A model generated the notes under the pieces. That model was not told where the DNA came from, did not search any database, and saw only the letters and a list, made by a program, of their open reading frames with translations. A stretch of DNA of 64,000 nt from Mesostigma viride (Eukaryota; Streptophyta; Mesostigmatophyceae; Mesostigmatales; Mesostigmataceae): assembly GCA_009746045.1 (NCBI GenBank), contig RPFO01001873.1, positions 58,537 through 122,536 on the forward strand, written 5' to 3'. This document shows, one piece after another, positions 3,420 through 63,514 of this stretch. Numbering within the stretch: position 1 is the first letter of the stretch; the number at the start of each line of letters is the position of its first letter. Made by a program: the position numbers and the translations under genes.

Positions 3420-3662
3420 GCCCCGTTGTGCTTGTCGGTCAACAGATTTTATATTGCATTTGTGAGATGATTGTGGGTGTCCATTTTGCACACCACCCAC
3501 AGCCATGCTTGAGTGCACCGTTCCTTGTGTGTGTATCAATACAGTTGGTGTTCGTATTTGATCAGTTGTGCCATTTCATCGGGTTGTTGCATGCCATCTG
3601 AACATGTTCACTCCCCGTTGCCATTTTTCATACCAGTGTTGTGAGCTCAGAGCAATGGATGC

Positions 3663-27600: not shown

Positions 27601-30600
27601 TTCTCCATGCACAGCTGAAAAAACCTGCGCCGAGGTGCGGCACCGCGGCCTACGTAGTGATTACTGTCTGCGACACGCCTGGGGCTGGCTGCATCTACCT
27701 GTCGGCCAATTGTGACCCGTGGGCTAGGCGAATTTGAATGCGGCTTTCCCGTTAGTTGTGGCTCCACCGCTCCAGTTTTCTAGGCTGACATGATGAACCG
27801 ACGGGGGTTCCTGGATTGAGACACGTTTTTTTCTCCATGCACAGCTGAAAAAACCTGCGCCGAGGTGCGGCACCGCGGCCTACGTAGTGATTACTGTCTG
27901 CGACACGCCTGGGGCTGGCTGCATCTACCTGTCGGCCAATTGTGACCCGTGGGCTAGGCGAATTTGAATGCGGCTTTCCCGTTAGTTGTGGCTCCACCGC
28001 TCCAGTTTTCTAGGCTGACATGATGAACCGACGGGGGTTCCTGGATTGAGACACGTTTTTTTCTCCATGCACAGCTGAAAAAACCTGCGCCGAGGTGCGG
28101 CACCGCGGCCTACGTAGTGATTACTGTCTGCGACACGCCTGGGGCTGGCTGCATCTACCTGTCGGCCAATTGTGACCCGTGGGCTAGGCGAATTTGAATG
28201 CGGCTTTCCCGTTAGTTGTGGCTCCACCGCTCCAGTTTTCTAGGCTGACATGATGAACCGACGGGGGTTCCTGGATTGAGACACGTTTTTTTCTCCATGC
28301 ACAGCTGAAAAAACCTGCGCCGAGGTGCGGCACCGCGGCCTACGTAGTGATTACTGTCTGCGACACGCCCGGGGCTGGCTGCATCTACCTGTCGGCCAAT
28401 TGTGACCCGTGGGCTAGGCGAATTTGAATGCGGCTTTCCCGTTAGTTGTGGCTCCACCGCTCCAGTTTTCTAGGCTGACATGATGAACCGACGGGGGTTC
28501 CTGGATTGAGACACGTTTTTTTCTCCATGCACAGCTGAAAAAACCTGCGCCGAGGTGCGGCACCGCGGCCTACGTAGTGATTACTGTCTGCGACACGCCC
28601 GGGGCTGGCTGCATCTACCTGTCGGCCAATTGTGACCCGTGGGCTAGGCGAATTTGAATGCGGCTTTCCCGTTAGTTGTGGCTCCACCGCTCCAGTTTTC
28701 TAGGCTGACATGATGAACCGACGGGGGTTCCTGGATTGAGACACGTTTTTTTCTCCATGCACAGCTGAAAAAACCTGCGCCGAGGTGCGGCACCGCGGCC
28801 TACGTAGTGATTACTGTCTGCGACACGCCCGGGGCTGGCTGCATCTACCTGTCGGCCAATTGTGACCCGTGGGCTAGGCGAATTTGAATGCGGCTTTCCC
28901 GTTAGTTGTGGCTCCACCGCTCCAGTTTTCTAGGCTGACATGATGAACCGACGGGGGTTCCTGGATTGAGACACGTTTTTTTCTCCATGCACAGCTGAAA
29001 AAACCTGCGCCGAGGTGCGGCACCGCGGCCTACGTAGTGATTACTGTCTGCGACACGCCCGGGGCTGGCTGCATCTACCTGTCGGCCAATTGTGACCCGT
29101 GGGCTAGGCGAATTTGAATGCGGCTTTCCCGTTAGTTGTGGCTCCACCGCTCCAGTTTTCTAGGCTGACATGATGAACCGACGGGGGTTCCTGGATTGAG
29201 ACACGTTTTTTTCTCCATGCACAGCTGAAAAAACCTGCGCCGAGGTGCGGCACCGCGGCCTACGTAGTGATTACTGTCTGCGACACGCCCGGGGCTGGCT
29301 GCATCTACCTGTCGGCCAATTGTGACCCGTGGGCTAGGCGAATTTGAATGCGGCTTTCCCGTTAGTTGTGGCTCCACCGCTCCAGTTTTCTAGGCTGACA
29401 TGATGAACCGACGGGGGTTCCTGGATTGAGACACGTTTTTTTCTCCATGCACAGCTGAAAAAACCTGCGCCGAGGTGCGGCACCGCGGCCTACGTAGTGA
29501 TTACTGTCTGCGACACGCCTGGGGCTGGCTGCATCTACCTGTCGGCCAATTGTGACCCGTGGGCTAGGCGAATTTGAATGCGGCTTTCCCGTTAGTTGTG
29601 GCTCCACCGCTCCAGTTTTCTAGGCTGACATGATGAACCGACGGGGGTTCCTGGATTGAGACACGTTTTTTTCTCCATGCACAGCTGAAAAAACCTGCGC
29701 CGAGGTGCGGCACCGCGGCCTACGTAGTGATTACTGTCTGCGACACGCCCGGGGCTGGCTGCATCTACCTGTCGGCCAATTGTGACCCGTGGGCTAGGCG
29801 AATTTGAATGCGGCTTTCCCGTTAGTTGTGGCTCCACCGCTCCAGTTTTCTAGGCTGACATGATGAACCGACGGGGGTTCCTGGATTGAGACACGTTTTT
29901 TTCTCCATGCACAGCTGAAAAAACCTGCGCCGAGGTGCGGCACCGCGGCCTACGTAGTGATTACTGTCTGCGACACGCCCGGGGCTGGCTGCATCTACCT
30001 GTCGGCCAATTGTGACCCGTGGGCTAGGCGAATTTGAATGCGGCTTTCCCGTTAGTTGTGGCTCCACCGCTCCAGTTTTCTAGGCTGACATGATGAACCG
30101 ACGGGGGTTCCTGGATTGAGACACGTTTTTTTCTCCATGCACAGCTGAAAAAACCTGCGCCGAGGTGCGGCACCGCGGCCTACGTAGTGATTACTGTCTG
30201 CGACACGCCCGGGGCTGGCTGCATCTACCTGTCGGCCAATTGTGACCCGTGGGCTAGGCGAATTTGAATGCGGCTTTCCCGTTAGTTGTGGCTCCACCGC
30301 TCCAGTTTTCTAGGCTGACATGATGAACCGACGGGGGTTCCTGGATTGAGACACGTTTTTTTCTCCATGCACAGCTGAAAAAACCTGCGCCGAGGTGCGG
30401 CACCGCGGCCTACGTAGTGATTACTGTCTGCGACACGCCCGGGGCTGGCTGCATCTACCTGTCGGCCAATTGTGACCCGTGGGCTAGGCGAATTTGAATG
30501 CGGCTTTCCCGTTAGTTGTGGCTCCACCGCTCCAGTTTTCTAGGCTGACATGATGAACCGACGGGGGTTCCTGGATTGAGACACGTTTTTTTCTCCATGC

Positions 30601-32252
30601 ACAGCTGAAAAAACCTGCGCCGAGGTGCGGCACCGCGGCCTACGGTAGTGATTACTGTCTGCGACACGCCCGGGGCTGGCTGCATCTACCTGTCGGCCAA
30701 TTGTGACCCGTGGGCTAGGCGAATTTGAATGCGGCTTTCCCGTTAGTTGTGGCTCCACCGCTCCAGTTTTCTAGGCTGACATGATGAACCGACGGGGGTT
30801 CCTGGATTGAGACACGTTTTTTTCTCCATGCACAGCTGAAAAAACCTGCGCCGAGGTGCGGCACCGCGGCCTACGTAGTGATTACTGTCTGCGACACGCC
30901 CGGGGCTGGCTGCATCTACCTGTCGGCCAATTGTGACCCGTGGGCTAGGCGAATTTGAATGCGGCTTTCCCGTTAGTTGTGGCTCCACCGCTCCAGTTTT
31001 CTAGGCTGACATGATGAACCGACGGGGGTTCCTGGATTGAGACACGTTTTTTTCTCCATGCACAGCTGAAAAAACCTGCGCCGAGGTGCGGCACCGCGGC
31101 CTACGTAGTGATTACTGTCTGCGACACGCCCGGGGCTGGCTGCATCTACCTGTCGGCCAATTGTGACCCGTGGGCTAGGCGAATTTGAATGCGGCTTTCC
31201 CGTTAGTTGTGGCTCCACCGCTCCAGTTTTCTAGGCTGACATGATGAACCGACGGGGGTTCCTGGATTGAGACACGTTTTTTTCTCCATGCACAGCTGAA
31301 AAAACCTGCGCCGAGGTGCGGCACCGCGGCCTACGTAGTGATTACTGTCTGCGACACGCCCGGGGCTGGCTGCATCTACCTGTCGGCCAATTGTGACCCG
31401 TGGGCTAGGCGAATTTGAATGCGGCTTTCCCGTTAGTTGTGGCTCCACCGCTCCAGTTTTCTAGGCTGACATGATGAACCGACGGGGGTTCCTGGATTGA
31501 GACACGTTTTTTTCTCCATGCACAGCTGAAAAAACCTGCGCCGAGGTGCGGCACCGCGGCCTACGTAGTGATTACTGTCTGCGACACGCCCGGGGCTGGC
31601 TGCATCTACCTGTCGGCCAATTGTGACCCGTGGGCTAGGCGAATTTGAATGCGGCTTTCCCGTTAGTTGTGGCTCCACCGCTCCAGTTTTCTAGGCTGAC
31701 ATGATGAACCGACGGGGGTTCCTGGATTGAGACACGTTTTTTTCTCCATGCACAGCTGAAAAAACCTGCGCCGAGGTGCGGCACCGCGGCCTACGTAGTG
31801 ATTACTGTCTGCGACACGCCCGGGGCTGGCTGCATCTACCTGTCGGCCAATTGTGACCCGTGGGCTAGGCGAATTTGAATGCGGCTTTCCCGTTAGTTGT
31901 GGCTCCACCGCTCCAGTTTTCTAGGCTGACATGATGAACCGACGGGGGTTCCTGGATTGAGACACGTTTTTTTCTCCATGCACAGCTGAAAAAACCTGCG
32001 CCGAGGTGCGGCACCGCGGCCTACGGTAGTGATTACTGTCTGCGACACGCCCGGGGCTGGCTGCATCTACCTGTCGGCCAATTGTGACCCGTGGGCTAGG
32101 CGAATTTGAATGCGGCTTTCCCGTTAGTTGTGGCTCCACCGCTCCAGTTTTCTAGGCTGACATGATGAACCGACGGGGGTTCCTGGATTGAGACACGTTT
32201 TTTTCTCCATGCACAGCTGAAAAAACCTGCGCCGAGGTGCGGCACCGCGGCC
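3663..32252 (+). repeat. Satellite array 1: ~124 tandem monomers of 229-232 bp
   Basis: Head-to-tail copies of one monomer fill 28.6 kb. Landmarks in each unit are GGATTGAGACACG followed by T7, GCTGAAAAAACCTGCGCC, GGTGCGGCACCGCGGCC and ATTGTGACCCGTGGGC. The first ~740 bp (3663-4400) hold scrambled, diverged monomers. From about 4400 to 9600 the unit is 230 bp (CTGACATGATG, TACGTAG, CGCCCGGGG). Variants change stepwise from 9.6 to 10.9 kb. About 60 seemingly uniform 232-bp units (CTGCATGACATG, TACGGTAG, CGCCTGGGG) follow to ~25.1 kb, then ~8 units of 229 bp, then 230-bp units again to the end. The array stops at the base where LINE copy 1 begins. It is probably the 5' part of that element. The repeated minus-strand frames of 72-92 codons are by-products of periodicity. 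Confidence 0.97.
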
Positions 32253-32447
32253 GCCCCGCGTTGGGGGGCTGCCGCCCCCCAAACCCCCCGCTTGGGGGCA
32301 CGGCGTCCGCATCTCCTCTCGCGCCGTTCGTCTCCCCCCGCGCTTCCGGCCTCCTTCACGACGCCGCCTTCCCGGGCGCGGGATGCGCTGCCTAGTGGCG
32401 CCCCTGCGCCGCGTCGGTCCTTACGCATCGCGGCGCACCTGCAGGAG
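32253..32447 (+). promoter_or_regulatory. GC-rich LINE leader with G/C hairpin
   Basis: Between the last monomer and the first in-frame ATG lies a G- and C-run leader. Positions 32263-32269 (GGGGGGC) and 32274-32280 (GCCCCCC) form a 7-bp stem with a 4-base loop. Copy 2 has an extra CCCCCCAAACCCCCC block and about 28 bases containing an ATG that are missing here. The leader could be 5' UTR or structured RNA; no function is shown. Confidence 0.5.
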
Positions 32448-33617
32448 ATGGGCGACCTGGACGACGGCGGTCGTGGCGCCCCTGTGCCACTCTCGCTTGT
32501 GTGCGAGGTCTGCCACAGTGGTGAGGATGCCCCCCGTCTCCTTGTGTGTGATTCGTGCCAATGCGGCTGGCACACGCGCTGCTTGGTCCCGCCCCTCTTC
32601 CGGCTGCCTCCCCCGGGTCCTTGGGCGTGCCCTCATTGCGTGGCCCCGCCTCGGCCGTCCCTAGGCTCCCGACGCGCGGCCGTGTCGACCCCGGGATCCC
32701 ATTCGGCCCGCGCCCCCTCCCGCAGCCCCTCGCTGGACCCTCTCCTGGGCCTTGCGGCCCTCGTGGAGGGTTCCACACCGTGCTCCCGCTCTCCCCGCGC
32801 CGTCACGTCCGGCCCCTCCGCGGGGTCCCCTGGCCCTGCCCCGCCTAGCTCTGGGGATCCACCTCCGGCCAGCACGGCGGTGGCCACTGACCTGCGTCCT
32901 CCTGTGCTTGAGGGGTCCCTGGCGGCTCTCCTCCCTGAGGCTGTGGGACACCCTGCGGCGACTCCTGTGGTGGGCCCCTGGTCGGCCGCGCTTGGGTCCC
33001 ACGACTTCTCCGTTTGGCCCCCCACCAACATTGCGGGCGTCAGCGCGCTCCGGCACGCCACGTTCTCTTGGCTGTATTGCCCCTTGCTGTTGGACGCTGT
33101 CGGCTTGCACGCGGCGTTTCCTACGCTCCCACGGCCCCCTGAATTTAGTGCCCTTGTGGTTCGTGTCCGGCACATGCTGCAGGCAGCCTCCCCCCCTGTC
33201 CTTGCCTCCACGCTTTGGGGGTTTGTCCTCGAGGACTACCATGCCGGCGGCCGCCTGCCTTGGCACCTGCCCGCGGTGCGCCAAGAATGGCTCCTGAATC
33301 TGGACGCTCAAGTGGCGCAGGCGGTGGTGCTCTTTGCTACAGGGCTTGCCGTGCAGGCCCAGCAGGCCGCCCGTGCGACATATCTCGCTGGGGGGGCCAC
33401 CGACCACGCCTTGCTCGATCGCCCTCAGCTGCACACGTTTCTTGCCTCTGCCGGGCCCGGCTCGGCCGGCCTTGTTGCGCAGGCCCACGGGCGCTTGACT
33501 ACGGCGGTCACCCCAGCGCAAGCCGCCCGCCTGCGCGTTGACTTCGGGGCTCCTGTCACCGTGCACGCCGGCGACCTGGTTCTGTACGATGCGGGGGGGG
33601 GCGTGTTCTTGAGCTGA
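32448..33617 (+). CDS. LINE copy 1 ORF1: PHD-finger protein
   Basis: The frame is open from 32292, but the first in-frame ATG is at 32448, because the ATG used in copy 2 (58093) is deleted here. A Cys4-His-Cys3 PHD finger lies at about 32502-32639: CEVC, then CDSC, GWHTRC and CPHC. Chromatin-binding PHD fingers read histone tails, and PHD modules are also known in ORF1 proteins of some CR1/L2-type LINEs. A Pro/Ser/Ala-rich linker follows, then an Ala-rich, probably helical region (about 33050-33560). The frame ends in TGA just after a G9 run (33592-33600). ORF2 follows in the -1 frame, so ORF1 may be a separate protein or the N-terminus of a frameshift fusion. A role in chromatin targeting or RNA binding is inference. 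Confidence 0.7.
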   Translation: MGDLDDGGRGAPVPLSLVCEVCHSGEDAPRLLVCDSCQCGWHTRCLVPPLFRLPPPGPWACPHCVAPPRPSLGSRRAAVSTPGSHSARAPSRSPSLDPLLGLAALVEGSTPCSRSPRAVTSGPSAGSPGPAPPSSGDPPPASTAVATDLRPPVLEGSLAALLPEAVGHPAATPVVGPWSAALGSHDFSVWPPTNIAGVSALRHATFSWLYCPLLLDAVGLHAAFPTLPRPPEFSALVVRVRHMLQAASPPVLASTLWGFVLEDYHAGGRLPWHLPAVRQEWLLNLDAQVAQAVVLFATGLAVQAQQAARATYLAGGATDHALLDRPQLHTFLASAGPGSAGLVAQAHGRLTTAVTPAQAARLRVDFGAPVTVHAGDLVLYDAGGGVFLS

Positions 33618-33631
33618 GCGCGGGTGCGGCC

Positions 33632-36600
33632 GTGCCCGCCATCTTGCACGATGTGCTCGAGCTTGCGGGCATCCCCCATGTCTGGCACCCTGCTGGTCCG
33701 CGCCGCCGTCTTCTCTCCGCCGATGAGATCGCCCGACTGCCGAGCTGGGAGCTGGGGTGGGACGCGGCGCCCGCCCACTACGGGCCGGCCCACTTGGTGG
33801 ATGTCACTGCCAGCGGCCCCTCCTGCCCCATCTGCTTGGACCTGCCTCGCCCTGGTGACGGTCTCTGCCGCCTCCCTGCTTGCGGCCACGTCTTCCATCA
33901 AGCTTGCATCGCCACGAGCTTGCACACGACCTCCGCCACCTGCCCCCTTTGCCGGGCCGCGGTCCTTTCCCCCTTGCCTCCTGGCGTTCTCCCGCTGGGG
34001 CCCTCGCCCGTGTCCGTGCGCCGCCAGTCCCACGCGCCTGCCCCGACACCTGCCTCCCCTGTGCGTGGTCGTGGGTCGCGCGCCGGCTTGGCTGCCTCCT
34101 CCAGCGCCCCCCTCCCGGCCGTGGGGGCCGTCCCCGCGCCGGTCTTGTCCTCGGCTGCCACGAGCCCTGCTGACCGCCCGGCGGCCGGCCCCGCCCTGGG
34201 TTCCGCTGCAGCTGTAGTTCCTCTGGCTGAGGGTGCTCCCGACCCCTCCCCCTCTCGACCCGGGCCGGCCCAACCGGGTGGGCGCACCCCCTCAGATGGC
34301 TTCCATTATTGCCAAGTCGATGGTCCCCTTGGTGACCCGTGTGGCGCGCGCCTGCCCAACCGGAATTCGTTGCTGGTGCACATTCGGGCTTCCCACCCCC
34401 ACATCACGGAGGCCGCCATGCGCGCCATGGACTGCTACCGCTGCCCGGCAGCCCATTGCCAGCGGATTTTTTCGATCCACGGGCGGTACCAGCATGAGCG
34501 GCAGTGCCGCCGCCAAACCCCCCAGAACGGCCTGCCCGGCGGCCCGGCGGCCGCACCGGCCTCCCGGTCCGGGGCGGCCCCTCGGTCGGCCCCTGCCCCT
34601 CCACCGGCATCGCAGGGTACGAGCGATCCGGGGGACCTCTCGGCAGGCTGGGCATTCCTGGCCACGCTCCCTTTTGCCGCCTGTGCGCGCAACCCTTGCA
34701 TGACGCTCCCGGACGTCCCTCACCGCGCCCGGAGCTTGTTTACGCGCTGCGCCCTGCTTTCCCTGGCCCGGATGCATAGTCACCCTCTCGACGAACTCGG
34801 CCACAAGCTGTTTCTCGTCACCCCCCGGCTCCTCTTAGCGCCGTTGGAGCGGGGCGTGCGTGGCGTACAGGGTGCGGTCATCGCTCGCTGCCGGCGGTTC
34901 CTCCTCGGGGATTGGGAAGGGCTGTGGGCGCTGCAGCCTCCGGCCTCCACCCGGGTGTCGGGGGCCGCCTCCTTTGCCCGGGTGGAAGCTGACGTCATGC
35001 GGTTGGTGAAGGTAGGTGAATTGAGCCGGGCCATGCAAAAGCTTGAACTGACCGCGTTGGCTCCCTCCACTCCCCCGACCCTGCAGGCTTTGCGCGACCT
35101 TCACCCCGACGAACCGGCCTTTGCGGTGCCCGCCCCGGCCACCCCCCGCCCCCGCCTATTGTCCTGGACCTGGACATCTTCACGGCTGTGCTGAAGGATC
35201 TGCCGAACGCCTCCTCCACCGGCCCCTCAGGCTGGCGCTACGAGCACCTCTCCGTGATGGCGGGCCATGGCGGGGCGACCGCACTCTTTGAGGCTGCCGC
35301 CGACTTGGCCGCGGGGTCCCTGGCCCCCGCGGCGCGCCCTTGGCTGGCTGGGGCACGCCTCATTGCCCTCCTGAAAGACGACGTCCCCCCGCCTGCTGGC
35401 CGCGTTCGTCCCATTGCTTGCGGCGAGGTCCTACGCAAGCTGGTGAGTAAGGTCATTTGTCGCCAAAAGGCCCCCGAGTTTCGCGCCTACTTCTGCCCCA
35501 ACCGGAGTGATACTGAGGAGTCCGTCGCGGCCCAGCTTGGCGTCGCCACCAAAGGGGGCAGCGACATCATCGTGCACACAGTTCAGGCCTACCTCGAGAC
35601 GCATCCGACCCATGTGGCGCTGAAGGTGGATTGCCACAATGCGTTCAATGCTGTCACCAAGGCTAGCATCTTTGAGGCCGTCGGCGAGGCGTTCCCTGAC
35701 CTTCTTGCGTGGACAGCAGCCTGCTACGGCGAACCCACTCAACTCTCCTTCCTCATGGAGGATGGGACGTTCGCCGACATCGCTTCCCGCACGGGAACCC
35801 AGCAAGGTGACCCCCTCGGCCCCTTTTACCTGTCTGCCCCGCTGCACAAGGCTCTCCAAGGTGTCCACGCTGCGCACCCGGATGTCGTGCTCCTCGCCTA
35901 CATGGACGATATCCATGCCCTTGGCCCGGCCGACGCTGTGGTTGCCGCCCTGGCTGCCCTTGAAGTGGCCATGGCGGCCATCAACCTTCGGCTCACCCTC
36001 CCCAAGTGTGCAGTCTTTTCGCCCCAGGGGGACTGCTCTGGCTTCCCCGCGGCTATCCCGGGGGCATTGGCGCGGGCGCGTGGTTTCTCGTGCCTGGGCG
36101 TCCCTGTGGGTGACCCTGACTACGTCGAAGAGGAGCTCCGGGCCACCGTGGAACAGCGCACCCATGTCCTTGAGACTTGGGCGCGCCTCAAGGACCCCCA
36201 GACCAAAGGGCTCCTCCTGTGGTTTTGCGCCCACCCGCGGGTGGTTCACTGGCTCCGTGGCGCTCCCCCCACTTGGTGCGGCTTGCCGCGGAAGGCCATG
36301 ACGAGCGCATTCAGGCCGCCTTGCAGGTGCTCCTCCCCGGCCCTAGCCTGCCAGCTCACTCCATGCGCTTGGCCACCCTCCCCTGCCGCATGGGCGGGTG
36401 TGGGCTCACCCGCGCCGCCCGCCTCGCCCCCGCCGCCTTCCTTGGCTCTGTTGCTCAGGCCTGGGCGGAGATCCGCCGGTTGGTCCCCAGCGCCGTCAGC
36501 GCCATTCCCGACTTGGTCACCCCATCCCCCTTCCCCTTTGTGCAGGCTGTGCAGGATTCTTACCTCGGGATCCAGCAGGCTTGCGACCTCGTCCGCCCCG

Positions 36601-37550
36601 CTCAGGCCGTCCACCGTCGCCTGCCCCGGGGCACGCCCGGCGTGTCCACTGTCGTCAGTCCTAGTGTCTTCCCTGCCTGCGTTCATGAAAAACAACAAAA
36701 GACCTACGCGGGTATACTACACTGTGCCGACTGGATGGGTCTGCATGCGAGCTTGAACGATCAGGGGAAGGCTTGGCTTCACTCCGTTTCCCTTGAGGGG
36801 AGCGTGGGGTCCGCATTCCTGCGCGCCCTCCCCATGAGCCCTTTGTTCACACTGGTTCCGGCCCTTTACGCCATCGCTCTCCGCCACCAGCTCTTTGCCC
36901 CGCAACCTCTCATCACGGCGGGTGCGTCCTGCGGCAGCTGCGGGCTTGCTCTGGATACTACTGGGACGCACTACATCGCGTGCATGGGTGGCCAGCAGAA
37001 CCAGAACTGGTTCCTCTATCTCCATACCGCTCTCCTCCGGGTGGTGTGTGCCATGGTTCGGTCGGTCTTTCCCCACTCCACCATTAAGTGCGAGGACGCG
37101 GATGGGGCCGCCCTCTACTCACCCAACCACCGCCCCGACATTACCGTGCTTGACTACGACGGGCAGGGTTGCCACCTGCTCATCGATGTCTCCGTGGCTC
37201 GGCCGCTTTCCGGTCGCCACATCCTCCGGGCGGCTGTGGATGCCGGCGCTGCTGCCGCTGTGGCTGAGCGCGACAAGTTTGCCTCCTACGGCAATGTGGG
37301 GCCCCACCGGGTCATCCCCTTTGTCCTTGAGGAGTTCGGGGCCATGGGCCCCAAGACAGCGGAGTTTTTCCACGAGTGCTGCCAGCGCCGTGAAGACCGC
37401 CTCGACCTCGAGGGTCAGACCGCCCCGTGGTCGGCCCGCACGTGGTCCTCGTATTGGCGGCAGCGTCTGTCACTCGCCCTCACTCGCACCGTGGCTGATG
37501 TGTTATTCCGCCGCACCCGGGCCGACTTTGTCGCGACCCATGCGGTCTAG
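33632..37550 (+). pseudogene. LINE copy 1 ORF2: RING / zinc finger / reverse transcriptase / endonuclease (two frameshifts)
   Basis: Domains in order: a RING finger at 33823-33953 (CPICL...CGHVFHQAC...CPLC); paired Cys/His fingers at about 34308-34510; reverse transcriptase at about 35190-36130 with motif A (VDCHNAFN, ~35626), motif B (GTQQGDPLGP, ~35800) and the catalytic YMDD at 35899-35910; a CCHC knuckle at 36929-36983 (C-x2-C-x9-H-x3-C); and a restriction-like endonuclease with RPD at 37131-37139, DVSV near 37185 and a downstream lysine. Together these would nick target DNA and prime cDNA synthesis. The frame breaks at a C6 run (35142-35147) and another C6 run (36265-36270); copy 2 has C7 at both. 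There is no ATG at the 5' end (33632 is GTG), consistent with translation from ORF1 by frameshifting or reinitiation. Either this copy is inactive or the two runs are miscalled. Confidence 0.85.
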
Positions 37551-37759
37551 ATTCCTTCCAGGCCTGCATGGTGGGCCGGCAGCGCTGTTGCTGCGTGTAG
37601 TTTTGTGATGTATAGTTAGTTGTACCTTGTGCCGCTGGCGTGATCCTTGGATGTCTGTGTCAGATTACTATTAATTTCTTCAGGGTTATTCTCCCAGTTC
37701 TCGGGTTTTTCCTTATGTTGCATGCCTATCTCACCTCCGTAATCTATCATTCTCAATGA
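37551..37759 (+). other. LINE copy 1 3' UTR
   Basis: About 210 bp lie between the ORF2 stop codon and the last clearly element-derived bases (CAATGA). The segment is nearly identical to 63299-63506 in copy 2. In R2-like elements this region is bound by the reverse transcriptase to start target-primed reverse transcription; that role here is by analogy. There is no poly(A) tail. Confidence 0.7.
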
Positions 37760-38936
37760 ATATAAATCACATGCGCGCAGGTCACTTAGCATAAATCAGG
37801 TCGGACAGGCGTCGATAATTACCAGGGCCACCGCCGCCGTGTTCGCGATCGTCAAGGATGTAGATGCATGTCCAAGCCAGCTAGGCTCGAAACCCTGAAT
37901 TAAGCTCTAGCGGTAAAGCGCGCAAGTGCCTGGCGCATGACGTGATCAACAACAATAATGAACATATACATGGAGACAGGACAAAACCTTGCCACATGAC
38001 CCCGTGTTGAAGGGGAATGGTGGGGTGGTGCGTTCCGCAGTCCGCACTATATACTGCCTGTGATCCCTCGATCATTTTATGTGTAGCCTGCAAATGGCAG
38101 CAATAAATGCTGGCGGCACGCGATCCAGAGCGAGGATTAATTAATTAATTAATAAGCACGTGACTGCGTCACGTGGGTGCCAATACAGAGTAAACGAACC
38201 TTCAACCCTATATACACAGCGAGAAGGAGGGAGGGCGCCCTAGCTTCTCTCACTGCCGCAGGTGGGCAGGCCACAGAGCGCTCTCTCCACGGCATGGTGC
38301 CGGGGCGCAACACTGTGGGTGCAATACAACCAGTGCAATACCATAGGTAGGCTGACGCATAGCTTATGCTACAAATGTGAGGTGGGCTCAAGACGTCGGC
38401 TAATTAAGGCGCAAGCTGATGGCCACAAGGTGCCAGAGCTAATTGAAGGTACTATAACGCTGTGCGCTAATATCGTTTCAAGTGCTGTAATGCCTAAGCT
38501 ATCCCATAATCGATTGCCCCCATCTAGACAACTAGCTAGAGTGCTCTATCCCGGGGAGGCCCGGGGGGCTTCCACAGTTTCTTGTTGACATGCATAGAGG
38601 TCCCCCACATCACCTAAAATCGGTCCGTCCGGTTAGGCGGTTACATGAGATCCTGGGAATTTTGGCGCGAACGCGTCGCGTTGAGGACGACGGGACCAGA
38701 AAAATTCCACCTCGCATGGCTGTCGACCCTATGTCCGCCGAAATATCAGTCATAAGTCAATTATGCATGTTAAGTCGCTGCGATGGATGCAAACGACACG
38801 TAAACTCTCCTGCTTTGCGATGATGCATGGTAGATATTATTCGCGTATGTTCATGCGTCAAAATAATTCGCAAACTGAGACGCTGTTTTTTTGTGTCGGC
38901 CAGATCTGGAATTGGCAGCGAAAATGCATGTTTATT
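37760..38936. other. Host spacer, no gene seen
   Basis: The frames are short and have no recognisable product. The segment holds a TTAA-type microsatellite at about 38136-38154 and an adjacent 19-bp inverted repeat at 38157-38175 (CACGTGAC-TGC-GTCACGTG), which contains two E-box/G-box CACGTG cores. It ends at the LTR element's target duplication. Confidence 0.5.
38157..38175. promoter_or_regulatory. Paired G-box inverted repeat
   Basis: CACGTGACTGCGTCACGTG is a perfect 8-bp inverted repeat around a 3-base spacer, with a CACGTG core at each end. Such cores bind bHLH or bZIP factors in plants and algae. No adjacent gene could be assigned, so a regulatory role is conjecture. Confidence 0.25.
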
Positions 38937-41900: not shown

Positions 41901-42017
41901 GCCACGCTGACCCGGCCATCCAGCCGCCCACGCAGCCACAGAGCCAGCCAGCCACGCAGTGACGCACCCACCCAGCCACACATCCACGCATCCACGCACC
42001 CGGCACCCCCCCCCCCC

Positions 42018-53168: not shown

Positions 53169-53176
53169 ATATATAT
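53169..53176. repeat. LINE copy 2 target-site duplication, left (ATATATAT)
   Basis: ATATATAT directly precedes the first, truncated monomer and recurs at 63507-63514 directly after the LINE 3' end. It is low-complexity, so chance cannot be excluded, but its position at both edges supports array plus LINE inserting as one unit. Confidence 0.6.
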
Positions 53177-56100
53177 TCCACCGCTCCAGTTTTCTAGGCT
53201 GACATGATGAACCGACGGGGGTTCCTGGATTAATTGAGACACGTTTTTTTCTCCATGCACAGCTGAAAAAACCTGCGCCGAGGTGCGGCACCGCGGCCTA
53301 CCGTAGTGATTACTGTCTGCGACACGCCCGGGGCTGGCTGCATCTACCTGTCGGCCAATTGTGACCCGTGGGCTAGGCGAATTTGAATGCGGCTTTCCCG
53401 TTAGTTGTGGCTCCACCGCTCCAGTTTTCTAGGCTGACATGATGAACCGACGGGGGTTCCTGGATTGAGACACGTTTTTTTCTCCATGCACAGCTGAAAA
53501 AACCTGCGCCGAGGTGCGGCACCGCGGCCTACCGTAGTGATTACTGTCTGCGACACGCCCGGGGCTGGCTGCATCTACCTGTCGGCCAATTGTGACCCGT
53601 GGGCTAGGCGAATTTGAATGCGGCTTTCCCGTTAGTTGTGGCTCCACCGCTCCAGTTTTCTAGGCTGACATGATGAACCGACGGGGGTTCCTGGATTAAT
53701 TGAGACACGTTTTTTTCTCCATGCACAGCTGAAAAAACCTGCGCCGAGGTGCGGCACCGCGGCCTACCGTAGTGATTACTGTCTGCGACACGCCCGGGGC
53801 TGGCTGCATCTACCTGTCGGCCAATTGTGACCCGTGGGCTAGGCGAATTTGAATGCGGCTTTCCCGTTAGTTGTGGCTCCACCGCTCCAGTTTTCTAGGC
53901 TGACATGATGAACCGACGGGGGTTCCTGGATTGAGACACGTTTTTTTCTCCATGCACAGCTGAAAAAACCTGCGCCGAGGTGCGGCACCGCGGCCTACCG
54001 TAGTGATTACTGTCTGCGACACGCCCGGGGCTGGCTGCATCTACCTGTCGGCCAATTGTGACCCGTGGGCTAGGCGAATTTGAATGCGGCTTTCCCGTTA
54101 GTTGTGGCTCCACCGCTCCAGTTTTCTAGGCTGACATGATGAACCGACGGGGGTTCCTGGATTAATTGAGACACGTTTTTTTCTCCATGCACAGCTGAAA
54201 AAACCTGCGCCGAGGTGCGGCACCGCGGCCTACCGTAGTGATTACTGTCTGCGACACGCCCGGGGCTGGCTGCATCTACCTGTCGGCCAATTGTGACCCG
54301 TGGGCTAGGCGAATTTGAATGCGGCTTTCCCGTTAGTTGTGGCTCCACCGCTCCAGTTTTCTAGGCTGACATGATGAACCGACGGGGGTTCCTGGATTAA
54401 TTGAGACACGTTTTTTTCTCCATGCACAGCTGAAAAAACCTGCGCCGAGGTGCGGCACCGCGGCCTACCGTAGTGATTACTGTCTGCGACACGCCCGGGG
54501 CTGGCTGCATCTACCTGTCGGCCAATTGTGACCCGTGGGCTAGGCGAATTTGAATGCGGCTTTCCCGTTAGTTGTGGCTCCACCGCTCCAGTTTTCTAGG
54601 CTGACATGATGAACCGACGGGGGTTCCTGGATTAATTGAGACACGTTTTTTTCTCCATGCACAGCTGAAAAAACCTGCGCCGAGGTGCGGCACCGCGGCC
54701 TACCGTAGTGATTACTGTCTGCGACACGCCCGGGGCTGGCTGCATCTACCTGTCGGCCAATTGTGACCCGTGGGCTAGGCGAATTTGAATGCGGCTTTCC
54801 CGTTAGTTGTGGCTCCACCGCTCCAGTTTTCTAGGCTGACATGATGAACCGACGGGGGTTCCTGGATTAATTGAGACACGTTTTTTTCTCCATGCACAGC
54901 TGAAAAAACCTGCGCCGAGGTGCGGCACCGCGGCCTACCGTAGTGATTACTGTCTGCGACACGCCCGGGGCTGGCTGCATCTACCTGTCGGCCAATTGTG
55001 ACCCGTGGGCTAGGCGAATTTGAATGCGGCTTTCCCGTTAGTTGTGGCTCCACCGCTCCAGTTTTCTAGGCTGACATGATGAACCGACGGGGGTTCCTGG
55101 ATTAATTGAGACACGTTTTTTTCTCCATGCACAGCTGAAAAAACCTGCGCCGAGGTGCGGCACCGCGGCCTACCGTAGTGATTACTGTCTGCGACACGCC
55201 CGGGGCTGGCTGCATCTACCTGTCGGCCAATTGTGACCCGTGGGCTAGGCGAATTTGAATGCGGCTTTCCCGTTAGTTGTGGCTCCACCGCTCCAGTTTT
55301 CTAGGCTGACATGATGAACCGACGGGGGTTCCTGGATTAATTGAGACACGTTTTTTTCTCCATGCACAGCTGAAAAAACCTGCGCCGAGGTGCGGCACCG
55401 CGGCCTACCGTAGTGATTACTGTCTGCGACACGCCCGGGGCTGGCTGCATCTACCTGTCGGCCAATTGTGACCCGTGGGCTAGGCGAATTTGAATGCGGC
55501 TTTCCCGTTAGTTGTGGCTCCACCGCTCCAGTTTTCTAGGCTGACATGATGAACCGACGGGGGTTCCTGGATTAATTGAGACACGTTTTTTTCTCCATGC
55601 ACAGCTGAAAAAACCTGCGCCGAGGTGCGGCACCGCGGCCTACCGTAGTGATTACTGTCTGCGACACGCCCGGGGCTGGCTGCATCTACCTGTCGGCCAA
55701 TTGTGACCCGTGGGCTAGGCGAATTTGAATGCGGCTTTCCCGTTAGTTGTGGCTCCACCGCTCCAGTTTTCTAGGCTGACATGATGAACCGACGGGGGTT
55801 CCTGGATTAATTGATCGAGACACGTTTTTTTCTCCATGCACAGCTGAAAAAACCTGCGCCGAGGTGCGGCACCGCGGCCTACCGTAGTGATTACTGTCTG
55901 CGACACGCCCGGGCTGGCTGCATCTACCTGTCGGCCAATTGTGACCCGTGGGCTAGGCGAATTTGAATGCGGCTTTCCCGTTAGTTGTGGCTCCACCGCT
56001 CCAGTTTTCTAGGCTGACATGATGAACCGACGGGGGTTCCTGGATTAATTGAGACACGTTTTTTTCTCCATGCACAGCTGAAAAAACCTGCGCCGAGGTG

Positions 56101-57967
56101 CGGCACCGCGGCCTACTGTAGTGATTACTGTCTGCGACACGCCCGGGGCTGGCTGCATCTACCTGTCGGCCAATTGTGACCCGTGGGCTAGGCGAATTTG
56201 AATGCGGCTTTCCCGTTAGTTGTGGCTCCACCGCTCCAGTTTTCTAGGCTGACATGATGAACCGACGGGGGTTCCTGGATTAATTGATCGAGACACGTTT
56301 TTTTCTCCATGCACAGCTGAAAAAACCTGCGCCGAGGTGCGGCACCGCGGCCTACTGTAGTGATTACTGTCTGCGACACGCCCGGGGCTGGCTGCATCTA
56401 CCTGTCGGCCAATTGTGACCCGTGGGCTAGGCGAATTTGAATGCGGCTTTCCCGTTAGTTGTGGCTCCACCGCTCCAGTTTTCTAGGCTGACATGATGAA
56501 CCGACGGGGGTTCCTGGATTAATTGAGACACGTTTTTTTCTCCATGCACAGCTGAAAAAACCTGCGCCGAGGTGCGGCACCGCGGCCTACCGTAGTGATT
56601 ACTGTCTGCGACACGCCCGGGGCTGGCTGCATCTACCTGTCGGCCAATTGTGACCCGTGGGCTAGGCGAATTTGAATGCGGCTTTCCCGTTAGTTGTGGC
56701 TCCACCGCTCCAGTTTTCTAGGCTGACATGATGAACCGACGGGGGTTCCTGGATTGAGACACGTTTTTTTCTCCATGCACAGCTGAAAAAACCTGCGCCG
56801 AGGTGCGGCACCGCGGCCTACGTAGTGATTACTGTCTGCGACACGCCCGGGGCTGGCTGCATCTACCTGTCGGCCAATTGTGACCCGTGGGCTAGGCGAA
56901 TTTGAATGCGGCTTTCCCGTTAGTTGTGGCTCCACCGCTCCAGTTTTCTAGGCTGACATGATGAACCGACGGGGGTTCCTGGATTGAGACACGTTTTTTT
57001 CTCCATGCACAGCTGAAAAAACCTGCGCCGAGGTGCGGCACCGCGGCCTACGTAGTGATTACTGTCTGCGACACGCCCGGGCTGGCTGCATCTACCTGTC
57101 GGCCAATTGTGACCCGTGGGCTAGGCGAATTTGAATGCGGCTTTCCCGTTAGTTGTGGCTCCACCGCTCCAGTTTTCTAGGCTGACATGATGAACCGACG
57201 GGGGTTCCTGGATTGAGACACGTTTTTTTCTCCATGCACAGCTGAAAAAACCTGCGCCGAGGTGCGGCACCGCGGCCTACGTAGTGATTACTGTCTGCGA
57301 CACGCCCGGGGCTGGCTGCATCTACCTGTCGGCCAATTGTGACCCGTGGGCTAGGCGAATTTGAATGCGGCTTTCCCGTTAGTTGTGGCTCCACCGCTCC
57401 AGTTTTCTAGGCTGACATGATGAACCGACGGGGGTTCCTGGATTGAGACACGTTTTTTTCTCCATGCACAGCTGAAAAAACCTGCGCCGAGGTGCGGCAC
57501 CGCGGCCTACGTAGTGATTACTGTCTGCGACACGCCCGGGGCTGGCTGCATCTACCTGTCGGCCAATTGTGACCCGTGGGCTAGGCGAATTTGAATGCGG
57601 CTTTCCCGTTAGTTGTGGCTCCACCGCTCCAGTTTTCTAGGCTGACATGATGAACCGACGGGGGTTCCTGGATTGAGACACGTTTTTTTCTCCATGCACA
57701 GCTGAAAAAACCTGCGCCGAGGTGCGGCACCGCGGCCTACGTAGTGATTACTGTCTGCGACACGCCCGGGGCTGGCTGCATCTACCTGTCGGCCAATTGT
57801 GACCCGTGGGCTAGGCGAATTTGAATGCGGCTTTCCCGTTAGTTGTGGCTCCACCGCTCCAGTTTTCTAGGCTGACATGATGAACCGACGGGGGTTCCTG
57901 GATTGAGACACGTTTTTTTCTCCATGCACAGCTGAAAAAACCTGCGCCGAGGTGCGGCACCGCGGCC
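53177..57967 (+). repeat. Satellite array 2: ~20 tandem monomers of 230-239 bp
   Basis: Same monomer and orientation as array 1, starting mid-unit at TCCACCGCTCC and stopping at the same base (GGTGCGGCACCGCGGCC) before the LINE leader. Most distal units are 235 bp, with AATT inserted in GGATTAATTGAGACACG and TACCGTAGTG. Two (near 55810 and 56285) carry a further TCGA insertion. Two early units lack the AATT. The five or so units next to the LINE are the plain 230-bp type, matching those next to copy 1. Confidence 0.97.
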
Positions 57968-58092
57968 GCCCCGCGTTGGGGGGCTGCCGCCCCCCAAACC
58001 CCCCGCTTGGGGGGCACGCCCCCCAAACCCCCCGCGTCCGCATCTCGCTCTCCCCCCGCGCTTCCGGTTCCGTTGTTTTACGCACCTCCCCC
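57968..58092 (+). promoter_or_regulatory. LINE copy 2 GC-rich leader
   Basis: This leader has two C6-AAA-C6-type blocks separated by GCTTGGGGGGCACG, against one such block in copy 1, so the leader has changed by a small tandem duplication. The G6 and C6 runs can form stable hairpins. The segment ends at the ATG at 58093. Confidence 0.5.
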
Positions 58093-59365
58093 ATGCCTCC
58101 TTCACGACGCCGCACCTCCCGGGCGCGGGATGCGCTGCCTAGTGGCGCCCCTGCGCCGCGTCGGTCCTTACGCATCGCGGCGCACCTGCAGGAGATGGGC
58201 GACCTGGACGACGGCGGTCGTGGCGCCCCTGTGCCACTCTCGCTTGTGTGCGAGGTCTGCCACAGTGGTGAGGATGCCCCCCGTCTCCTTGTGTGTGATT
58301 CGTGCCAATGCGGCTGGCACACGCGCTGCTTGGTCCCGCCCCTCTTCCGGCTGCCTCCCCCGGGTCCTTGGGCGTGCCCTCATTGCGTGGCCCCGCCTCG
58401 GCCGTCCCTAGGCTCCCGACGCGCGGCCGTGTCGACCCCGGGATCCCATTCGGCCCGCGCCCCCTCCCGCAGCCCCTCGCTGGACCCTCTCCTGGGCCTT
58501 GCGGACCTCGTGGAGGGTTCCACACCGTGCTCCCGCTCTCCCCGCGCCGTCACGTCCGGCCCCTCCGCGGGGTCCCCTGGCCCTGCCCCGCCTAGCTCTG
58601 GGGATCCACCTCCGGCCAGCACGGCGGTGGCCACTGACCTGCGTCCTCCTGTGCTTGAGGGGTCCCTGGCGGCTCTCCTCCCTGAGGCTGTGGGACACCC
58701 TGCGGCGACTCCTGTGGTGGGCCCCTGGTCGGGCCGCGCTTGGGTCCCACGACTTCTCCGTTTGGCCCCCCACCAACATTGCGGGCGTCAGCGCGCTCCG
58801 GCACGCCACGTTCTCTTGGCTGTATTGCCCCTTGCTGTTGGACGCTGTCGGCTTGCACGCGGCGTTTCCTACGCTCCCACGGCCCCCTGAATTTAGTGCC
58901 CTTGTGGTTCGTGTCCGGCACATGCTGCAGGCAGCCTCCCCCCCTGTCCTTGCCTCCACGCTTTGGGGGTTTGTCCTCGAGGACTACCATGCCGGCGGCC
59001 GCCTGCCTTGGCACCTGCCCGCGGTGCGCCAAGAATGGCTCCTGAATCTGGACGCTCAAGTGGCGCAGGCGGTGGTGCTCTTTGCTACAGGGCTTGCCGT
59101 GCAGGCCCAGCAGGCCGCCCGTGCGACATATCTCGCTGGGGGGGCCACCGACCACGCCTTGCTCGATCGCCCTCAGCTGCACACGTTTCTTGCCTCTGCC
59201 GGGCCCGGCTCGGCCGGCCTTGTTGCGCAGGCCCACGGGCGCTTGACTACGGCGGTCACCCCAGCGCAAGCCGCCCGCCTGCGCGTTGACTTCGGGGCTC
59301 CTGTCACCGTGCACGCCGGCGACCTGGTTCTGTACGATGCGGGGGGGGGCGTGTTCTTGAGCTGA
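58093..59365 (+). pseudogene. LINE copy 2 ORF1: PHD-finger protein, one frameshift
   Basis: Starts at ATG 58093 (MPPSRRRTSRARD), an Arg-rich N-terminus that copy 1 has lost. The PHD finger at about 58249-58386 is the same as in copy 1 (CEVC...CDSC...GWHTRC...CPHC). One extra G at about 58731-58733 (GGTCGGGCC against GGTCGGCC) shifts the frame; the rest of ORF1 continues in another frame to the same stop at 59363-59365, again just after a G9 run. The presence of the ATG here makes 58093 the best estimate of the family's start codon. The break could be a base-call error. Confidence 0.7.
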
Positions 59366-59379
59366 GCGCGGGTGCGGCC

Positions 59380-62300
59380 GTGCCCGCCATCTTGCACGAT
59401 GTGCTCGAGCTTGCGGGCATCCCCCATGTCTGGCACCCTGCTGGTCCGCGCCGCCGTCTTCTCTCCGCCGATGAGATCGCCCGACTGCCGAGCTGGGAGC
59501 TGGGGTGGGACGCGGCGCCCGCCCACTACGGGCCGGCCCACTTGGTGGATGTCACTGCCAGCGGCCCCTCCTGCCCCATCTGCTTGGACCTGCCTCGCCC
59601 TGGTGACGGTCTCTGCCGCCTCCCTGCTTGCGGCCACGTCTTCCATCAAGCTTGCATCGCCACGAGCTTGCACGCGACCTCCGCCACCTGCCCCCTTTGC
59701 CGGGCCGCGGTCCTTTCCCCCTTGCCTCCTGGCGTTCTCCCGCTGGGGCCCTCGCCCGTGTCCGTGCGCCGCCAGTCCCACGCGCCTGCCCCGACACCTG
59801 CCTCCCCTGTGCGTGGTCGTGGGTCGCGCGCCGGCTTGGCTGCCTCCTCCAGCGCCCCCCTCCCGGCCGTGGGGGCCGTCCCCGCGCCGGTCTTGTCCTC
59901 GGCTGCCACGAGCCCTGCTGACCGCCCGGCGGCCGGCCCGCCCTGGGTTCCGCTGCAGCTGTAGTTCCTCTGGCTGAGGGTGCTCCCGACCCCTCCCCCT
60001 CTCGACCCGGGCCGGCCCAACCGGGTGGGCGCACCCCCTCAGATGGCTTCCATTATTGCCAAGTCGATGGTCCCCTTGGTGACCCGTGTGGCGCGCGCCT
60101 GCCCAACCGGAATTCGTTGCTGGTGCACATTCGGGCTTCCCACCCCCACATCACGGAGGCCGCCATGCGCGCCATGGACTGCTACCGCTGCCCGGCAGCC
60201 CATTGCCAGCGGATTTTTTCGATCCACGGGCGGTACCAGCATGAGCGGCAGTGCCGCCGCCAAACCCCCCAGAACGGCCTGCCCGGCGGCCCGGCGGCCG
60301 CACCGGCCTCCCGGTCCGGGGCGGCCCCTCGGTCGGCCCCTGCCCCTCCACCGGCATCGCAGGGTACGAGCGATCCGGGGGACCTCTCGGCAGGCTGGGC
60401 ATTCCTGGCCACGCTCCCTTTTGCCGCCTGTGCGCGCAACCCTTGCATGACGCTCCCGGACGTCCCTCACCGCGCCCGGAGCTTGTTTACGCGCTGCGCC
60501 CTGCTTTCCCTGGCCCGGATGCATAGTCACCCTCTCGACGAACTCGGCCACAAGCTGTTTCTCGTCACCCCCCGGCTCCTCTTAGCGCCGTTGGAGCGGG
60601 GCGTGCGTGGCGTACAGGGTGCGGTCATCGCTCGCTGCCGGCGGTTCCTCCTCGGGGATTGGGAAGGGCTGTGGGCGCTGCAGCCTCCGGCCTCCACCCG
60701 GGTGTCGGGGGCCGCCTCCTTTGCCCGGGTGGAAGCTGACGTCATGCGGTTGGTGAAGGTAGGTGAATTGAGCCGGGCCATGCAAAAGCTTGAACTGACC
60801 GCGTTGGCTCCCTCCACTCCCCCGACCCTGCAGGCTTTGCGCGACCTTCACCCCGACGAACCGGCCTTTGCGGTGCCCGCCCCGGCCACCCCCCCGCCCC
60901 CGCCTATTGTCCTGGACCTGGACATCTTCACGGCTGTGCTGAAGGATCTGCCGAACGCCTCCTCCACCGGCCCCTCAGGCTGGCGCTACGAGCACCTCTC
61001 CGTGATGGCGGGCCATGGCGGGGCGACCGCACTCTTTGAGGCTGCCGCCGACTTGGCCGCGGGGTCCCTGGCCCCCGCGGCGCGCCCTTGGCTGGCTGGG
61101 GCACGCCTCATTGCCCTCCTGAAAGACGACGTCCCCCCGCCTGCTGGCCGCGTTCGTCCCATTGCTTGCGGCGAGGTCCTACGCAAGCTGGTGAGTAAGG
61201 TCATTTGTCGCCAAAAGGCCCCCGAGTTTCGCGCCTACTTCTGCCCCAACCGGAGTGATACTGAGGAGTCCGTCGCGGCCCAGCTTGGCGTCGCCACCAA
61301 AGGGGGCAGCGACATCATCGTGCACACAGTTCAGGCCTACCTCGAGACGCATCCGACCCATGTGGCGCTGAAGGTGGATTGCCACAATGCGTTCAATGCT
61401 GTCACCAAGGCTAGCATCTTTGAGGCCGTCGGCGAGGCGTTCCCTGACCTTCTTGCGTGGACAGCAGCCTGCTACGGCGAACCCACTCAACTCTCCTTCC
61501 TCATGGAGGATGGGACGTTCGCCGACATCGCTTCCCGCACGGGAACCCAGCAAGGTGACCCCCTCGGCCCCTTTTACCTGTCTGCCCCGCTGCACAAGGC
61601 TCTCCAAGGTGTCCACGCTGCGCACCCGGATGTCGTGCTCCTCGCCTATATGGACGATATCCATGCCCTTGGCCCGGCCGACGCTGTGGTTGCCGCCCTG
61701 GCTGCCCTTGAAGTGGCCATGGCGGCCATCAACCTTCGGCTCACCCTCCCCAAGTGTGCAGTCTTTTCGCCCCAGGGGGACTGCTCTGGCTTCCCCGCGG
61801 CTATCCCGGGGGCATTGGCGCGGGCGCGTGGTTTCTCGTGCCTGGGCGTCCCTGTGGGTGACCCTGACTACGTCGAAGAGGAGCTCCGGGCCACCGTGGA
61901 ACAGCGCACCCATGTCCTGAGACTTGGGCGCGCCTCAAGGACCCCCAGACCAAAGGGCTCCTCCTGTGGTTTTGCGCCCACCCGCGGGTGGTTCACTGGC
62001 TCCGTGGCGCTCCCCCCCACTTGGTGCGGCTTGCCGCGGAAGGCCATGACGAGCGCATTCAGGCCGCCTTGCAGGTGCTCCTCCCCGGCCCTAGCCTGCC
62101 AGCTCACTCCATGCGCTTGGCCACCCTCCCCTGCCGCATGGGCGGGTGTGGGCTCACCCGCGCCGCCCGCCTCGCCCCCGCCGCCTTCCTTGGCTCTGTT
62201 GCTCAGGCCTGGGCGGAGATCCGCCGGTTGGTCCCCAGCGCCGTCAGCGCCATTCCCGACTTGGTCACCCCATCCCCCTTCCCCTTTGTGCAGGCTGTGC

Positions 62301-63298
62301 AGGATTCTTACCTCGGGATCCAGCAGGCTTGCGACCTCGTCCGCCCCGCTCAGGCCGTCCACCGTCGCCTGCCCCGGGGCACGCCCGGCGTGTCCACTGT
62401 CGTCAGTCCTAGTGTCTTCCCTGCCTGCGTTCATGAAAAACAACAAAAGACCTACGCGGGTATACTACACTGTGCCGACTGGATGGGTCTGCATGCGAGC
62501 TTGAACGATCAGGGGAAGGCTTGGCTTCACTCCGTTTCCCTTGAGGGGAGCGTGGGGTCCGCATTCCTGCGCGCCCTCCCCATGAGCCCTTTGTTCACAC
62601 TGGTTCCGGCCCTTTACGCCATCGCTCTCCGCCACCAGCTCTTTGCCCCGCAACCTCTCATCACGGCGGGTGCGTCCTGCGGCAGCTGCGGGCTTGCTCT
62701 GGATACTACTGGGACGCACTACATCGCGTGCATGGGTGGCCAGCAGAACCAGAACTGGTTCCTCTATCTCCATACCGCTCTCCTCCGGGTGGTGTGTGCC
62801 ATGGTTCGGTCGGTCTTTCCCCACTCCACCATCAAGTGCGAGGACGCGGATGGGGCCGCCCTCTACTCACCCAACCACCGCCCCGACATTACCGTGCTTG
62901 ACTACGACGGGCAGGGTTGCCACCTGCTCATCGATGTCTCCGTGGCTCGGCCGCTTTCCGGTCGCCACATCCTCCGGGCGGCTGTGGATGCCGGCGCTGC
63001 TGCCGCTGTGGCTGAGCGCGACAAGTTTGCCTCCTACGGCAATGTGGGGCCCCACCGGGTCATCCCCTTTGTCCTTGAGGAGTTCGGGGCCATGGGCCCC
63101 AAGACAGCGGAGTTTTTCCACGAGTGCTGCCAGCGCCGTGAAGACCGCCTCGACCTCGAGGGTCAGACCGCCCCGTGGTCGGCCCGCACGTGGTCCTCGT
63201 ATTGGCGGCAGCGTCTGTCACTCGCCCTCACTCGCACCGTGGCTGATGTGTTATTCCGCCGCACCCGGGCCGACTTTGTCGCGACCCATGCGGTCTAG
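59380..63298 (+). pseudogene. LINE copy 2 ORF2: RING / zinc finger / reverse transcriptase / endonuclease (two frameshifts)
   Basis: Same domain order as copy 1. The RING finger is at about 59571-59701, zinc fingers at about 60055-60258, RT at about 60935-61880 with YMDD at 61647-61658, the CCHC knuckle at about 62677-62731 and the endonuclease RPD near 62879. Here the frame is continuous from the zinc fingers through the RT because the C run at about 60888-60894 has seven bases. Breaks are a lost C at about 59937-59939 (stop at 59964) and a lost T near 61917 (GTCCTGAG against GTCCTTGAG). The second C run (62012-62018) is C7, matching the frame that leads into the endonuclease. Each copy is thus intact where the other is broken, so the family was recently coding-competent. 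Confidence 0.85.
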
Positions 63299-63506
63299 AT
63301 CCTTCCAGGCCTGCATGGTGGGCCGGCAGCGCTGTTGCTGCGTGTAGTTTTGTGATGTATAGTTAGTTGTACCTTGTGCCGCTGGCGTGATCCTTGGATG
63401 TCTGTGTCAGATTACTATTAATTTCTTCAGGGTTATTCTCCCAGTTATCGGGTTTTTCCTTATGTTGCATGCCTATCTCACCTCCGTAATCTATCATTCT
63501 CAATGA
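63299..63506 (+). other. LINE copy 2 3' UTR
   Basis: Matches 37551-37759 with few differences (for example CAGTTATCGGG for CAGTTCTCGGG) and ends CAATGA before the AT-repeat duplication. Confidence 0.7.
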
Positions 63507-63514
63507 ATATATAT
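63507..63514. repeat. LINE copy 2 target-site duplication, right (ATATATAT)
   Basis: Second copy of the 8-bp duplication. The first bases (ATATA) are also found after CAATGA in copy 1, so the exact boundary between element end and target is ambiguous by up to five bases. Confidence 0.55.

Follow-up and report, generated by a model that had tools for sequence, protein, structure and literature searches.

Tandem ~230-bp monomers form the mobile 5' end of a very young LINE, probably of restriction-like endonuclease type, in Mesostigma viride

In the genome of Mesostigma viride, two copies of a long interspersed nuclear element (LINE) each follow directly on an array of ~230-bp tandem monomers, which raises the question of whether these monomers are a satellite in which the element has landed or the 5' region of the element itself. 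The window analyzed here is a stretch of 64,000 bp (C1471:58537-122536) that makes up the terminal part of a 122,536-bp contig, in an assembly of 439.9 Mb and 2,243 contigs. Both LINE copies (32253-37761 and 57968-63508) are on the + strand, the arrays have the same orientation as the LINE, and monomers occur in the window exclusively in these two arrays, the sequence available 3' of copy 2 being limited to 486 bp. The features of the two loci are as follows.

3662..32252, + strand: copy 1 monomer array, ~124 units, with an irregular start of ~690 bp, 230-bp units towards both edges and a central, unbroken run of 61 identical 232-bp units
32253..37761, + strand: LINE copy 1 (leader, open reading frame (ORF) 1, ORF2 and 3' untranslated region (UTR))
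33542..37550, + strand: ORF2 of copy 1, frame broken
53169..53176, + strand: ATATATAT, 5' member of the target duplication of copy 2
53177..57967, + strand: copy 2 monomer array, 20.8 units
57968..58092, + strand: G/C-rich leader of copy 2, from the array to the first ATG of ORF1, in the position of the mouse L1 'tether'
58093..59365, + strand: ORF1 of copy 2 with a PHD finger (match made with copy 1 and a further copy, L013), with a frameshift caused by a single base that copy 1 lacks
59290..63298, + strand: ORF2 of copy 2 (approximate start, frame broken), with RING-H2 finger, C2H2-like pair, reverse transcriptase, CCHC knuckle and RPD..D endonuclease-like motif
63299..63506, + strand: 3' UTR of copy 2, ending in ..CTCAATGA ahead of the AT target
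63507..63514, + strand: ATATATAT, 3' member of the target duplication of copy 2

The two LINE copies are ~99.8% identical outside the variable 5' leader, with differences at about a dozen places, and their leaders differ by insertions and deletions. The switch from monomer to LINE falls at the identical base in both, the array ending in ..GGCACCGCGGCC (..GCGGCC) and the LINE starting with GCCCCGCGTTGGGG. The arrays are built of 232/230-bp units in copy 1 and 235/230-bp units in copy 2, and they start at different points within the monomer, at ~position 161 (set by eye) and at position 113, respectively. A preliminary description of the window had reported the same-orientation arrays, the common switch base, the different array starts, the absence of monomers from both 3' flanks and an 8-bp duplication bracketing the array and LINE of copy 2, and our analysis confirmed each of these observations. 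The duplication, a direct repeat of ATATATAT, is weak evidence by itself because nearly all LINE 3' ends continue into ATAT (27/28 where the 3' end could be seen), and it is other copies that supply the proof. Contig C1457 shares the 5' flank of copy 2 (identical over at least 1,499 bp) as well as its array start, and therefore probably carries copy 2 as a second haplotype. At L072 (C1457:1826400-1827400), likely this haplotype, the array passes into monomers riddled with small insertions, which may reflect assembly error or decay.

The junction was then followed across the genome. The 27 bases that open the LINE had 98 exact matches in the genome, a count that leaves out copies with a mutated start; a reversed control word had none, and a 27-base word from the PHD region had 116. 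The sequence upstream of the 98 starts came from longer flanks in 32 copies (two of them those of the window), from the array survey in 13 and from 75 bases each in the remaining 53. Monomer sequence stood immediately upstream in 98/98, so that no LINE start without any monomer sequence was seen in this set. The junction was ..GGCC followed by G in 94 of them, and the other four (L079, L104, L107 and L123) shared one alternative, 22 bp shorter. In six copies (L079, L080, L114, L122, L123 and L124) the last monomer was only partly kept (9-59 bp by alignment), and five of the six had a target-type AT run within ~10 bp upstream. L114 is the weakest of these cases, with 9 aligned bases (16 counting a variant monomer tail) and an unclear flank, and L079 and L123 have near-identical flanks and are probably two haplotypes of one site. 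On contig C1 (14.3 Mb), for which all exact matches were listed, monomer words were found at most 1.5 kb upstream of the LINE body in 6/6 cases, and conversely six of eight groups of monomer words preceded a LINE body by no more than this distance. A lone monomer word at 279524 lay 2.4 kb ahead of a LINE-linked group, and the monomer group at 1895146-1897037 was followed by a LINE-sized gap. That the two window copies are a single segmental duplication, which would make their shared junction trivial and would fit the ~99.8% identity of the coding part, is almost certainly wrong and was rejected, since their 5' and 3' flanks, array starts and array types all differ and the same junction recurs in 94/98 copies, many with different flanks. 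Furthermore, the family appears very young, because the mean pairwise substitution difference among 20 LINE bodies is 0.09%, and the structures of its insertions are therefore fresh.

These insertions were examined closely in 32 copies, 21 of which could be used for target duplications; the other 11 lacked a reached array start or 3' end. The longest string common to the 5' and 3' flanks averaged 9.6 bp in own pairs and 7.6 bp in mismatched pairs, and the own-pair mean was matched in 0/20,000 permutations. In 9 of the 21 copies the duplication extended past the AT run and was located outside array plus LINE, with lengths of 17 bp in L009 (ATATATGTAAGGTTGTG), 14 bp in L019 (ATATATATTTTTCA) and L029, 12 bp in L027, 11 bp in L025, 10 bp in L020 and L021, 9 bp in L010, and 16 bp in L035, ~4 of the latter coming from the tail of an older LINE copy ahead of it. 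L009, L010, L020 and L029 were inserted in one and the same dispersed repeat, and the uninterrupted target of L009, L020 and L029, a 49-bp word with a single copy of the duplicated stretch, had 446 exact copies in the genome. Given this empty target and the duplications outside, array and LINE were therefore inserted as one unit in these three copies. The monomers are thus the mobile 5' end of the LINE and the two move together, so that the suggestion of the preliminary description that the monomers are the 5' region of the element is borne out by the 98 junctions, the outside duplications and the 446 empty targets.

The opposite account, in which the monomers are an ordinary genomic satellite and the LINE inserts site-specifically at one monomer position, as R2 does in ribosomal DNA, has some initial appeal, given that LINEs with a restriction-like endonuclease (RLE) often target fixed sites in repeats (PMC4640811) and that the junction base is nearly constant. 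This account is very improbable and was rejected. The 3' end could be seen in 28 copies; the flank beyond it (138-492 bp seen per copy) was free of monomers in 28/28 and opened with ATAT in 27, and a LINE lying amid an array with monomers on both sides was found in none of them; the monomers that follow the LINE in L038 (C1579) belong to the next LINE copy in the same orientation. The 3' end was not at the expected place in the remaining four copies (L011, L016, L036 and L038). Together with these clean 3' flanks, the duplications and empty targets outside the array and the six copies that keep only part of one monomer speak against a pre-existing satellite as the target.

Regarding the insertion targets, several insertions occupy the AT-rich middle of a palindromic repeat, whose inverted arms flank the LINE on both sides in L014, L026 and L031 and on one side in others; the arms exceed 100 bp in L014 and L026. 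The empty form of this palindromic target was not found among the retrieved loci. In addition, among L035 and the copies at C1579:2518796-2531031, LINEs have inserted into the AT tail left by a previous copy or are arranged head to tail, which is a possible route to tandem LINE clusters.

Array starts were also informative. The start was reached in 22 of the 32 copies, with positions taken from BLAST ends, in which an error of 1-2 bases is possible, except for copy 1, set by eye as stated above; the start of L014 is irregular. Eight of the 22 starts fell at monomer positions 108-114 and seven at positions 156-167, 15/22 together. Eight starts in a 7-bp stretch were obtained in 0/20,000 random sets, and two stretches holding 15 starts in 0/5,000, so the clustering is not that of random 5' truncation. 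The simplest reading is that each monomer carries two transcription starts, and the clustered positions make the monomer a likely, putative promoter of the LINE. As clustering alone cannot separate a start from a cut, the same pattern could also arise from RNA cleavage, by a self-cleaving ribozyme or a nuclease, or from preferred ends for second-strand joining; R2 RNA, for instance, is processed by a 5' ribozyme. We consider this explanation rather unlikely, since cleavage within each monomer would break up the tandem array at the RNA level and no ribozyme family matched positions 56900-58400 up to E = 2. The sole matches in this region were two weak frameshift-element matches in the leader, far below the cut-off, and no Rfam family reached its gathering score anywhere in the window. 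A ribozyme in the monomers thus found no support.

Array length in the 22 copies with a reached start ranged from 0.9 to ~124 monomers (median 4.3), and the remaining 10 arrays had at least 6 monomers each, three of them at least 17. The longest array, that of copy 1, is layered: 230-bp units lie near both edges, intermediate types follow inward and the identical 232-bp units occupy the centre, the monomer types running 0-6-8-9/5-1 and then in reverse, with mutations accumulating from the edges to the middle. This layering points to growth in place, and expansion of the copy 1 array within its locus is well supported. New monomers could instead be gained mainly during reverse transcription, by template jumping, and not by unequal exchange on the chromosome. 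Two or more full units could be read in 30 arrays, of which 15 consist of a single monomer type, as template jumping would favour (9/9 units in L012, 12/12 in L018), and 15 are mixed; the build-up of mutations in copy 1 from both edges inward, as growth in place predicts, leaves template jumping as the main source of monomers a doubtful proposition.

A 36-base monomer word had 1,847 exact matches genome-wide. To assess to what extent arrays exist apart from the LINE, 21 further ones among the arrays listed were checked, and 15 of these lead into the 5' end of a LINE, one of them (C1793) through a junction with a small deletion. Another five stop at contig ends (C1205, C672 and C834), at an assembly gap (C2) or in degenerate or badly assembled monomers (C1457). 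An independent satellite would be expected to stand commonly without the LINE, and among these listed arrays it does so in 1/21 compared with the 15/21 that are LINE-linked. Thus, the proposal that the family makes its own satellite holds in part: the layered array of ~124 units supports it, and LINE-free arrays are represented by a single case.

All these data make it very probable that the monomers belong, as its 5' region, to a young retrotransposon without long terminal repeats, whose RNA starts in a monomer, which inserts in one piece and whose array may grow later. Under this model, the start of the RNA would lie within a monomer of the array, usually at either of two favoured positions, and the RNA would consist of the remaining monomers, the leader, ORF1, ORF2 and the 3' UTR. 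Reverse transcription would take place at AT-rich targets, array and LINE being inserted as a single piece with a short target duplication, and some copies would be truncated within the monomers. After insertion, the array could expand through unequal exchange or some comparable mechanism, at the extreme reaching the size of a satellite, and in at least one instance an array would have come to stand without its LINE.

Several observations weigh against this model. Copy 1 has no target duplication, the longest string common to its two flanks being 4 bp, and 12 of the 21 usable copies, including copies 1 and 2, have AT-only duplications or none that is convincing. Shared strings of at least 9 bp also occur in 109/420 mismatched pairs, the targets being alike, and extra bases separate duplication and array in L025 (3), L027 (12) and L029 (10). 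An array of ~124 units and 28 kb would hardly have arisen as one full-length copy of an RNA, and therefore a separate growth step is needed. The single array without a LINE, L070 (C1471:52800-55413), ends within a monomer and is followed by other sequence. Lastly, monomer type 1 (232 bp) is present in two distinct insertions with differing leaders, copy 1 (4352-32252) and L022, which the simple model does not explain and which suggests an exchange of monomers between loci. As a separate observation, L070 adjoins sequence rich in TGTGACATTTTGTGA, and the irregular start of the copy 1 array also contains words of this kind (window 4110-4351).

With respect to its proteins, ORF1 encodes a PHD finger (E = 2e-7). 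ORF2 (1,336 codons) encodes a RING-H2 finger (PF13639, E = 1e-9), whose nearest solved chain is Arkadia (E = 5.5e-7), and, in L013, a reverse transcriptase (PF00078, E = 1.4e-12). It also has a C2H2-like pair, a CCHC knuckle (C-x2-C-x9-H-x3-C) and RPD-x15-D with a lysine further on. The spacing published for the knuckle of RLE LINEs is CX2-3CX7-8HX4C (PMC5678591), and the knuckle found here is one residue off. The ORF2 frame is open over at least 1,336 codons in 10 of the 20 aligned bodies. ORF1 and ORF2 are in different frames and share ~75 bases (59290-59365), an overlap that suggests frameshifting or reinitiation. Comparison with PDB sequences returned RING fingers, no more than weak reverse transcriptase matches and, for the C-terminal half, nothing apart from one chance match. 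AlphaFold2 models of the reverse transcriptase and the C-terminus, made without relatives, had a mean pLDDT (predicted local distance difference test) of 38, too low to be of use. No relatives were found in viral contigs, and neither ORF1 nor ORF2 had a Pfam match to an apurinic endonuclease (APE) domain. The reverse transcriptase domain, the target duplications of variable length and the truncation inside monomers identify the element as a LINE, and its RLE-like C-terminus makes it likely of the RLE type. The presence of an E3-ligase-like RING-H2 finger within ORF2 of a LINE (window 33542-35191; L013:5420-9427) together with a PHD finger in ORF1 is an observation in its own right, and our literature search found no description of this combination in a LINE.

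L1 is an APE LINE, and in this respect the element differs from the monomeric L1s of mouse, having an RLE-like C-terminus and no APE that we could find; in common with them, it retrotransposes its monomers as the 5' end. Tandem 5' promoter monomers have been described for several mammalian L1s, and those of mouse (A, Tf and Gf) have tandem ~200-bp monomers in the 5' UTR (PMC9022269). Monomers placed before a non-repeated leader, a variable number of units, starts inside monomers and preferred start positions are common to both systems (PMC9022269). In contrast, more than 10 intact monomers are found at only seven loci in the mouse set (PMC9022269), where long arrays are rare, whereas at least 6 of the 32 copies examined here have more than 10, one of them ~124. 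With the RLE LINEs that have microsatellite targets (the HERO families, and Togen near NeSL) the element shares a reverse transcriptase followed by a CCHC-type knuckle and an RPD..D endonuclease-like motif, as well as a simple-repeat-like target, here an AT run (PMC4640811); it differs from them in its PHD and RING-H2 fingers, its two ORFs and its tandem 5' monomers. Dualen/RandI of green algae are likewise large LINEs with an RLE-like C-terminus, but Dualen carries both APE and RLE (PMC4640811), and an APE was not found here. Satellites derived from transposable elements, such as those from the Ogre 3' UTR, the HeT-A 3' end and the central repeats of Helitrons, also involve short internal arrays that reach satellite size (PMC9659126, PMC12628747); in the present case the array originates from a LINE 5' end, and no source of this kind appears in the portion of the review's table that we used. 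A tandem-monomer 5' end on an RLE LINE was not found in a literature search in which most subscription journals lay outside coverage and some queries were restrictive.

The recurrence of this arrangement in a different, RLE-like LINE suggests that it is a general solution to the loss of the promoter at each imperfect copy. Whether the tandem promoter monomers arose independently in an RLE-type LINE, each insertion seeding a satellite that grows to tens of kb, homogenises, swaps monomer types and may outlive its LINE, is in our judgment evenly balanced. The more limited idea that this LINE family seeds satellites is partly supported, by the growth in place of copy 1 and by the one LINE-free array. 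Since copies with fewer than one to ~124 monomers coexist in a very young family, a single genome could serve to study how monomers are gained and lost and how satellites arise.

Apart from the monomers, the window also contains three minisatellites between the two LINE copies, at 41928-42878, 43817-45021 and 46510-47488, with periods of 8 bp, 149 bp and about 105/129 bp, respectively.

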